A stretch of DNA of 64,000 bases from Anaerolineales bacterium (GTDB taxonomy: Bacteria > Chloroflexota > Anaerolineae > Aggregatilineales > UBA2796): NCBI GenBank assembly GCA_015075625.1, contig JABTTZ010000003.1, positions 620,001 through 684,000 on the forward strand. The letters are read 5' to 3'. Below the pieces are notes generated by a model. It was given only the letters and a program-made list of their open reading frames with translations, did no database searches and was not told where the DNA came from. Of this stretch, positions 57,842 to 64,000 are shown piece after piece. A program made the position numbers and the translations under genes. Within the stretch, counting starts at the first letter, position 1; each line of letters begins with the position of its first letter.

Positions 57842-57903
57842 CTATCCCCTACCTCCTTTCCCTGCAAGCGGGGAAAGGGGGTAAACAACCCCTCTCTGTG
57901 TTA
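57842..57903 (+). repeat. Family B-like repeat, copy 8 (interrupted)
   Basis: TATCCCCTACCTCCTTTCCC / GGGGAAAGGGGG, then CAACCCCTCTCTG. Similar G-rich and C-rich sequence (ACAGGGAAAGGGGAGAAATT, GGGGGACAGGGGGTGAGAG) resumes at about 58528-58580, on the other side of the IS remnant. Confidence 0.55.
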
Positions 57904-58525
57904 GGGCTGAGGAGAGGACATGTTTTCAAGTGAACCTTATGTCTGGGATAAAGGGTAATCCTAAACACAAGGTTTGGCGTTGAACAACTTGCACGAAGTA
58001 GCGCAAGCCTTCCCGAAACAAGCTCCAGAGCCGCCGGAACGACCCGTCGGGACGACGAACGAGCGGTTGGGCGATACCAGCAGCAACGGCTTGGCTGCCG
58101 AGGGCGACCATCCACGTGTAGGCAATGGTCAACAGAACCAGCCGGTTGGCGATATGCTGCTTCCAGCAGGGCGCGAATCATCTCCACCTGTCCTTCGGCA
58201 AAAAAGGCTGTTAGGTCGAGCGCTTTATTAGCGAGCCAGCGGCGAAAGCGCCGCGCCGTACTCTCTACCTGTTCTCCGCAACTCGCCGCCCGCGCAATCG
58301 CTCCTTGCTGACAGTTCTCCGCTTGAATCACCCCATAGCTAAACAGGCTTACATTTTGCTGCTGCCAACCATTGAAACACGGTAGATGGGCTGACAAGTG
58401 CTGCTCTAATTGGTACAGTAGTTTGTAGTTCATCGTTCCTCACTGGGTTTCTTGGTCGATTTCCAGTTTGAACGATGAACTCTCTATTTTTCAACCCGCC
58501 TTCCAAACATATCCTCTCCTCAGCC
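57904..58525 (-). mobile_element. IS4-family remnant with terminal inverted repeats
   Basis: The left end GGGCTGAGGAGAGGACATGT and the right end (read inward) GGCTGAGGAGAGGATATGTT are inverted repeats of about 20 bp that flank a deleted transposase gene. The 622-bp element is too short for an active IS4-family copy. No clear target duplication is visible. The end sequence also resembles family B text (GGGCTGAGGAGGG at 23.1 kb), so part of the inverted repeat could belong to the surrounding repeat. Confidence 0.7.
57926..58433 (-). pseudogene. IS4-family transposase with internal deletion and frameshift
   Basis: The gene begins in one frame with MNYKLLYQLEQHLSAHLPCF, then ESTARRFRRWLANKALDL and FFAEGQVEMIRALLEAAY, which is the N-terminal part of an IS4-like transposase. 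At about 58155 it jumps to another frame reading NRLVLLTIAYTWMVALGSQA and RPDGSFRRLWSLFREGLRYF, which is the C-terminal part. The catalytic DDE core that normally lies between them is gone. It cannot encode a working transposase. Confidence 0.82.
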
Positions 58526-62210: not shown

Positions 62211-63602
62211 TTACGCTAACCCCTTCTCTAATTCCCGTTGGAGGCGATTCGGATCGTAATCTTGATGAACGTACATGAGATCACAAATGGTTACTGCCAA
62301 ACGGATCAATTCGCGGATATTGATTTGGCGATTTTTAAGGCTTCGTGAGAGCAACGCAGAGGTTTCCCTGAGAAGATTTTGGTAGCGTTCTTTGGACGGG
62401 TTGCGATAGTCAAAGGCAACGCTATGATAGCGTAGAACCATCTTCAGAAATTTATCAATGTCTTCTTTCAAAAAGCGATTGTCTAAACGAACGACCTGAG
62501 AGGGGGTAAGCCATACTTCAACGGGCATCCGACTTTCGCTTTCGGTGGAGGCGAACAAAAAGAGGAGGTGTGCGTCGTCGGTGAAATTGACCGGATAATC
62601 CGCCCGCAGGTGATTGGGAATGGTCTCAGGATCGATCAAGCTGGCAGAGGGTCCCATCGCAGCGTGAATAAGCGCTTTGAAGAAGGCATCGGCACGCTCT
62701 CGCTGGGCTGTTTTCAAAAGTGAATAATGTTCGGACTCGTCAATCAAGACCACCAATCCGGCATAGCCAAGAGAGGCAGCTAAAGCGCTTATGGCTGTCA
62801 AGAGGTAGGCATATTGACGCGCCACCTCGCCGTTGACATAGAGAGGTGGCGGTTTTTTGAAGAATTGCCGCATGGCAGCCGTAGGTTTGATTTGAGCGCT
62901 GAGCCAATAAGCGATGTCTTCGGCAGCTTGGGCATTGTCACACAGGGATAAGGATTCAAGGGCTAGACATAGCGGGCAATCATCAATAGGACTGCGGTTC
63001 ACAAAGGCACCGAGTTGATGAGGACTTTCTAGCGCCTTTTGCAAAAGGGGTTTCAAGCCGCCTTCATCATGATCCGGGTAGCGAAGCGAGGCGATCAGAG
63101 ATCGATAAATCTCGCGTGCCTTGCCCGGCGGCACTTCAACGAGATCAAGGCTGGTATTGGCAACCAAAAAATTTTTTTCAAGGGCTTTCTGGGCGGTTAG
63201 CTCAACAAAATGGCTTTTCCCAAAACCATAGTCAGCAATGACTGCCATTGCCTCGCCGCCGTGTTCCAATGCCCGTGCGATGGCACGATCAAGGCTTGTT
63301 TGTTCTGCCTCCAAGCCAATGGTGAGGTCTTTGACCTGTTTTATCGGGACGACACCCGCACGCAGCGCCTCTAACGTCTGACGATTCAGGAATTGATCGG
63401 TTTGGGGTGGTGGAGGGACAGGATGATACCCGTTGTGGGTTGGGATATGGGCGTGAATGGACTCCGCCTCGAATTCATGGGAATGGAGGCGATAGCGCTG
63501 TCCTGAGGCGAACTTCACTTCCCAAATATAGCCACCCATAATGCTTTTGAGAAGGATGCCTTCACCAAGAGTAGGGTGTTTCACCCGACGTGCGGTTGTC
63601 AT
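62211..63602 (-). CDS. P-loop ATPase of the BREX ATP-binding (DUF2791/BrxD-like) type with N-terminal Tudor-like domain
   Basis: 463 residues. The N-terminus (RVKHPTLGEGILLKSIMGGY, WEVKFASGQRYRLHSHEFE) resembles the small Tudor-like module at the end of UvrD/PcrA helicases. After a Pro-rich linker, the ATPase has Walker A AVIADYGFGKSHFVELTAQK (Lys129), the GxGKSH form typical of BREX-associated ATPases. Walker B is LVVLIDESEHYSLLKT and a sensor is LLFLFASTESES. A CPLCLALESLSLC cluster may bind metal. BrxD-type ATPases belong to phage-defence systems. The gene upstream is cut by the window edge, so the system cannot be named. Confidence 0.75.
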   Translation of the reverse strand: MTTARRVKHPTLGEGILLKSIMGGYIWEVKFASGQRYRLHSHEFEAESIHAHIPTHNGYHPVPPPPQTDQFLNRQTLEALRAGVVPIKQVKDLTIGLEAEQTSLDRAIARALEHGGEAMAVIADYGFGKSHFVELTAQKALEKNFLVANTSLDLVEVPPGKAREIYRSLIASLRYPDHDEGGLKPLLQKALESPHQLGAFVNRSPIDDCPLCLALESLSLCDNAQAAEDIAYWLSAQIKPTAAMRQFFKKPPPLYVNGEVARQYAYLLTAISALAASLGYAGLVVLIDESEHYSLLKTAQRERADAFFKALIHAAMGPSASLIDPETIPNHLRADYPVNFTDDAHLLFLFASTESESRMPVEVWLTPSQVVRLDNRFLKEDIDKFLKMVLRYHSVAFDYRNPSKERYQNLLRETSALLSRSLKNRQINIRELIRLAVTICDLMYVHQDYDPNRLQRELEKGLA

Positions 63603-63625
63603 GATGGACGTTCCTGCTTCATCGT

Positions 63626-64000
63626 CTACGCATTATCGGCGTCAGGATATTCAGTCAATGCATCGCCCTCGCCCTGAATGATCTTTTGGGCGTCGCTGCT
63701 ATTCAGCCTTTGTTCACCTTCTTCTTTTTGTCGAAACCATTCCCCAACCAACGCCTTGACGAATAACCGTCGATGGCTAATGGCTAAAAATGATTTCATG
63801 GAGGCTTCAGCAAGCACCATGATGTTTTGGGTTTGTATCTCGTGATTCATGGACGTGCCAAAGGCAACCTCGAAGATGGGAAGTAATTTTTGCCCAATCT
63901 GATTAAGCAGATCGGTATCAGCCATATCCAAATGGTCAAGGTTGATCTGGGGGCTGAAGGGGTTGGAGCGGGAAAAATAGCCGGGTGCTTGCACACGCTG
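63626..64000 (-). CDS. Unrecognised protein, C-terminal part (runs off right edge)
   Basis: The last 124 codons or so of a leftward gene that is open to the window edge. It is largely helical and polar (HLDMADTDLLNQIGQKLLPI, VAFGTSMNHEIQTQNIMVLA, SHRRLFVKALVGEWFRQKEE). It ends 23 bp before the BREX-type ATPase gene on the same strand, so the two are probably in one operon. I do not recognise the family from this fragment. A GTG at 63994 could be a start, but the frame is open beyond it. Confidence 0.6.
   Translation of the reverse strand, partial: QRVQAPGYFSRSNPFSPQINLDHLDMADTDLLNQIGQKLLPIFEVAFGTSMNHEIQTQNIMVLAEASMKSFLAISHRRLFVKALVGEWFRQKEEGEQRLNSSDAQKIIQGEGDALTEYPDADNA

Follow-up and report, generated by a model that had tools for sequence, protein, structure and literature searches.

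A candidate defence module of paired BrxD-like ATPases, mostly followed by a BrxHI-like helicase, in a Chloroflexota genome and other bacteria

The locus

The window analysed here is a stretch of 64,000 nucleotides (G000:C3:620001-684000) of a genome of 4.68 Mb and 98% completeness. Open reading frames of the contig, extended past the window, revealed a compact operon of three minus-strand genes, A-B-C, which straddles the right window edge (Table 1). Gene A lies 5 bp upstream of B, B lies 23 bp upstream of C, and the gene that follows C is only about 55 bp away. The operon is flanked on one side by a divergent gene, which we take from reading its sequence to be that of HflX, and on the other by presumed flavin-reductase-like and lgt genes; between these, A-B-C stands alone, with PglX and BrxC/PglY absent at the locus. 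An Rfam search of the locus gave no matches. About 3.8 kb from the operon, the N-terminus of an ORF at window positions 57849-58433 (minus strand) resembles, by eye, a truncated IS transposase.

The original prediction, made from the window alone, took the genes at the right edge for the border of a likely defence or DNA-processing operon, and this reading of the locus is supported. The Walker A motif GFGKSH and the Walker B motif LVVLIDESEHY are both present in the 463-aa ORF to which they had been assigned, the window-cut upstream gene begins 23 bp away as described, and extension of the contig yielded a compact operon between ordinary genes, the upstream members of which are not genes of metabolism. 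The prediction did not foresee a paralogous ATPase as the partner, a new family for gene A or the lack of the helicase here.

Table 1. Features of the A-B-C operon. Positions without prefix are those of the window.
Feature	Position	Strand	Description	Basis
Gene C	62211..63602	-	463 aa, ATG start; N-terminal Tudor domain and BrxD-like ORC/Cdc6-type AAA+ ATPase (predicted)	
Tudor domain of gene C	63465..63602	-	residues 1-46	profile against the PDB, strands of the model
Walker A of gene C	63210..63233	-	DYGFGKSH, residues 124-131	invariance in 49 homologues
Walker B of gene C	62724..62756	-	LVVLIDESEHY, residues 283-293	invariance in 49 homologues
Gene B, part inside the window	63626..64000	-	C-terminal 124 aa	ORFs of the extended contig
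Gene B, whole	G000:C3:683626-684936	-	436 aa, predicted BrxD-like AAA+ ATPase without Tudor domain	PF10923
Gene A	G000:C3:684942-686009	-	355 aa, beyond the window	ORFs of the extended contig

Proteins of the operon

Gene C had been predicted to encode an ATPase of the BrxD/DUF2791 type, and it belongs to the BrxC_BrxD family PF10923 with an E-value of 1.2e-29, scoring 103.9 bits where the cut-off is 22.2. Among the PADLOC profiles it matched BrxD (3.3e-23) and, more weakly, SngB of Shango (2.8e-16); in the NCBIfam BrxD equivalog it reached 80.6 bits, below the cut-off of 350 bits. In an AlphaFold model built on 49 relatives (pLDDT 91.6), residues 67-463 are similar in structure to ORC/Cdc6 chains of archaea and eukaryotes, the best structural match being archaeal ORC2 (1w5t; Z 15.9, 262 residues, rmsd 3.8). 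Residues Y125, G126, G128, K129 and H131 of Walker A and D288 and E289 of Walker B are invariant in 49 homologues. By its modelled fold and both Walker motifs, gene C is predicted to be an ORC/Cdc6-type AAA+ ATPase; it shares this AAA+ fold with the ORC/Cdc6 initiators, but neither an MCM helicase nor an origin is linked to it, its context being a patchy accessory operon.

The N-terminus of gene C had been expected to form a Tudor-like barrel. In the model, four strands fall within residues 5-40 (5-9, 13-21, 26-31 and 36-40), and H9, G13, G15, G24 and F31 are invariant in the same 49 homologues. A profile of residues 1-46, built from 22 homologues, found Tudor domains of PcrA/UvrD in the PDB, with 7egt as the best match (1.7e-7), followed by 4c2t (6.1e-5) and 6yi2 (2.8e-4); single sequences fall below the Pfam cut-off. 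By profile homology, this domain is of the PcrA/UvrD type, but in those helicases it is C-terminal, whereas here it stands N-terminal on an AAA+ ATPase. In PcrA/UvrD, a helicase interaction motif mediates binding of the Tudor domain to RNA polymerase beta and to UvrB (PMC8318588). In its strict form, the PcrA-binding motif of that study is absent from the RpoB of the window genome and from the proteins of the module described below, with the exception of one D protein. A Tudor domain is also present on the UvrD-like helicase that the window genome itself encodes, so the motif may differ here.

The family of the upstream partner had been called unplaceable. The part of gene B inside the window indeed gave no match to PF10923 on its own, but the whole gene did, with an E-value of 1.5e-40 and 139.8 bits (cut-off 22.2), which identifies its product by profile as a second complete BrxD-like AAA+ ATPase and a paralogue of C.

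Gene A of the window genome matched nothing in PADLOC at an E-value of 1, its homologues (n=34) showed no consistent match to Pfam and no TerB, and no model for them was found in Pfam, NCBIfam or PADLOC; as judged from these profile searches, it is a new protein family. The structural model of a close relative, 51% identical to the protein of the window genome, has a pLDDT of 95.8 and comprises a long hairpin of helices and, after it, a mixed alpha/beta part. Searches of PDB and viral collections, which chiefly covered residues up to 150, gave no fold assignment and returned helical-bundle matches only, with E-values above 0.05.

Conservation and distribution

A helicase had been expected beside the ATPase. 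This expectation was borne out in the relatives but failed in the window genome itself: A-B-C recurs in a number of genomes from the window genome's family and order, in three of which (G025, G028, G003) a gene D follows, while D is absent from the window locus and from the whole genome, the best helicase matches of which are short and weak. D encodes a DExH helicase of about 690 aa with BrxHI (3.3e-65) and SngC (1.5e-55) as its closest PADLOC matches, and further matches of its helicase core are to the Lhr and ligase-associated DEXH families; by its profile matches, D is an SF2 helicase of the BrxHI/SngC kind.

For a scan of genome contigs, 80 of 228 relatives were kept and their loci scored with profiles of A to D. 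Where the flanking DNA sufficed on either side, 37 of 44 loci showed the order A-B-C-D, and at assessable loci the individual genes were present in 57/60 (A), 60/60 (B) and 49/56 (D) cases. Seven assessable loci besides that of the window are D-less, including L045 and L048 from the family of the window genome. Across 46 loci, the pairwise distances of the four proteins correlate with one another at 0.79-0.89, as joint inheritance of their genes would lead one to expect. According to database records, hosts of the module include Chloroflexota, Myxococcota and other Deltaproteobacteria, Planctomycetota, Acidobacteriota, Armatimonadota/Armatimonadetes, WOR-3, Fischerbacteria and UBP9; a copy in a Burkholderiales MAG is nearly identical to that of UBP9 and may be a binning error. 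A-B-C-D is thus a distinct module with a conserved gene set and order, present in many bacterial phyla. A search of open-access full text turned up no description of the four-gene set, and the module is apparently undescribed so far.

Its occurrence is patchy, with 25/298 genomes of the class (about 8%) and 11/400 of the phylum. The flanks of the module are not conserved between loci, and the chromosomal copies examined sit among ordinary genes. Viral contigs of IMG/VR contained no relatives of the module. A tblastn search of plasmids with gene A of one locus (L087) gave no match, although the profile does find A on a plasmid of Aulosira laxa. Two lines of evidence on mobility were set aside. 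In a genome of the same genus (G001), the HflX and flavin reductase neighbours are not syntenic, and the comparison yields no empty-site evidence for acquisition at the window site. A conflict between tree and taxonomy (14 changes of class labels against a minimum of 7) is open to long branches, MAG binning and paralogy, and we make no firm claim of horizontal transfer from it.

In some Chloroflexota loci, extra genes are inserted between B and C or between C and D. This cargo includes GmrSD (L070), HNH (L047), N6/N4 methyltransferases (L063, L077), AAA_21 with DUF4276 (L065), AAA_15 with PIN (L047, L060), HEPN with a nucleotidyltransferase (L065), Card1-CARF (L072), Uma2 (L028, L029, L033), and YoeB and RelE-like toxins. 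Chloroflexota commonly carry toxin-antitoxin and Uma2 genes. A single A-B-C-D operon (L065 2728-9189) holds two separate pairs of an AAA ATPase and a DUF4276-like protein and one HEPN/nucleotidyltransferase pair. The auxiliary effectors of BREX include GmrSD, HNH-OLD pairs, HEPN/MNT and PIN (PMC12839542). As evidence of defence, these cargo genes, which were counted without a background control, are suggestive only.

Relation to BREX and Shango

Reference loci were taken from plasmids, as PglZ-BrxD-helicase for BREX-2 and TerB-ATPase-helicase for Shango. In the ATPase tree, C (25 rows, SH-aLRT 100) and B (25 rows, SH-aLRT 99) form clades separate from BrxD and SngB. The Aulosira B and C have long branches, and their placement is unsure. 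In the helicase tree, D forms one clade (22 rows, SH-aLRT 100) apart from BrxHI and SngC.

With BREX type 2 the module shares a BrxD-family ORC/Cdc6 AAA+ ATPase gene beside a gene for a BrxHI (Lhr/Ski2-like) helicase. It differs in having two paralogous ATPases rather than one, the Tudor domain on C, the new gene A and separate clades, and in lacking PglZ, PglX and BrxC. The window operon falls outside BREX type 2 on the BrxD equivalog, PglZ, PglX and BrxC/PglY alike. It had been proposed as a BREX-like variant without BREX core genes, and no PglZ above the family cut-off was found anywhere in the window genome (best 24.3 against 25 bits, on another contig). Beyond B and C, a PF10923 search of this genome returned no full-length ATPase, just short Walker-motif matches.

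The Shango operon (SngA TerB, SngB ATPase, SngC helicase) is similarly short and functions without BREX core genes; in it, too, the gene of an extra protein comes first, followed by that of a BrxD-family ATPase and then that of a BrxHI-like helicase. The module differs from it in its two ATPases and in a gene A without SngA/TerB match; B, C and D lie outside the SngB/SngC clades, and their profile matches to SngB/SngC are weaker than those to BrxD/BrxHI. As the module belongs to neither BREX nor Shango, it is a third branch of the ATPase-helicase theme that these systems share. BrxHII and the BREX-Related helicases carry an N-terminal Tudor domain on a Swi2/Snf2 helicase (PMC12839542) and thus also combine such a domain with a motor protein of a BREX-like system; here, in contrast, it sits on an AAA+ ATPase, and the module core contains neither DUF499 nor a methyltransferase.

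On the conjugative plasmid AP018310 of Aulosira laxa (L138 4762-24287), the genes BrxC-PglX-PglZ-BrxD-BrxHI-A-B-C-D lie on one strand, with a complete type-2 BREX followed directly, head to tail, by A-B-C-D. The C protein of this plasmid has no Tudor domain. Two other plasmid loci were noted in passing. A three-gene operon of the halophilic archaeon DL31 (L137 1455-7505), annotated as hypothetical proteins and a DEAD/DEAH helicase, has an ATPase and a helicase that group with Shango. A locus of Deinococcus psychrotolerans (L126 4626-9419) comprises genes for a coiled-coil protein, a single BrxD-like ATPase, a helicase and an HNH protein; it lies near the BREX clade with no annotated PglZ nearby, and is possibly another ATPase-helicase variant.

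Discussion

We interpret A-B-C, joined by D in most relatives, as a distinct, patchily distributed module that probably serves in anti-phage or anti-plasmid defence, perhaps by a loader mechanism, and assign this reading a probability of about 0.62. Defence is the likeliest function of the module, and of the parts of this reading we hold it with good confidence. Shango, which has the same kind of ATPase and helicase, is experimentally anti-phage (PMC10250203), and is the nearest functionally tested relative of the module. A defence role is also favoured by the patchy occurrence with unconserved flanks and by the position directly behind a complete BREX-2 on a conjugative plasmid, and the cargo genes hint at it. 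Against it stand the lack of a nuclease or other effector in the module core, the missing D of the window genome and the absence of copies from the IMG/VR viral contigs.

BrxD has been proposed to load or activate BrxHI (PMC12839542), and the loader mechanism that we infer would extend this proposal to the module. B and C could form a hetero-oligomer around DNA, as in ORC/Cdc6 and clamp loaders, with gene A, by its helical hairpin and alpha/beta domain, as a putative adaptor or DNA-binding subunit. The Tudor domain of C might, like its PcrA/UvrD counterparts, dock the complex on a partner such as RNA polymerase or a repair factor. The assembled ATPases would then load helicase D on invading DNA, or switch it on there, and the action of D would block replication of the invader or expose its DNA to nucleases. 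Where D is absent, as in the window, A-B-C might act alone, borrow a host helicase or represent a reduced remnant. In its most specific form, the idea is that A-B-C-D would be an immune system spanning phyla, whose heteromeric ORC/Cdc6-like loader is held through the PcrA-type Tudor domain to a repair complex or to RNA polymerase during transcription and places an Lhr-like helicase on invading DNA, with the helicase-less A-B-C as a second type; this version is tentative, and we would sooner expect it to fail in some part than to hold throughout.

The same domains would also suit a chromosomal module of DNA repair or replication restart, in which ORC-like ATPases and an Lhr-like helicase act on damaged or stalled host DNA and the Tudor domain provides coupling to RNA polymerase or UvrB. 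The ORC/Cdc6 fold and PcrA/UvrD-type Tudor domain of C, the likeness of the D core to Lhr and ligase-associated DEXH families, which act in DNA damage responses, and the ordinary surroundings of the chromosomal copies are all consistent with it. A housekeeping role of this sort is nonetheless unlikely, given a module that is found in so small a fraction of the genomes of the class, without conserved flanks, that travels on a conjugative plasmid beside BREX and takes up restriction and toxin cargo, and that has its nearest homologues in BREX-2 and Shango proteins. The plasmid arrangement in Aulosira laxa, together with the homology of B and C to BrxD and of D to BrxHI, would in turn fit a module accessory to BREX type 2, in which a duplicated BrxD-BrxHI dyad and an adaptor work with BREX proteins. 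We consider this very improbable: the B, C and D clades are deeply separate, the window genome has neither a PglZ above the cut-off nor a further full-length BrxC/D ATPase, and PglZ, PglX and BrxC were not noticed beside chromosomal copies in an unsystematic look.

The absence of D from the window genome implies either that the helicase is not strictly needed or that this copy is degenerate. A decaying, non-functional remnant of a four-gene system would account for the loss of D from both locus and genome and for the short distance from C to the next gene; with A, B and C at full length, their Walker motifs intact, and the other D-less loci making the arrangement look like a stable variant, decay seems a distinctly poor bet. 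BrxD/BrxHI and Shango have an ATPase-helicase core in common, to which the module adds a third branch. Having few genes, two ATPases that are specialised and an adaptor in the form of a Tudor domain, it offers a simpler object for tests of the loader hypothesis. If its function is indeed defence, defence catalogues would gain a widespread and so far unannotated system.
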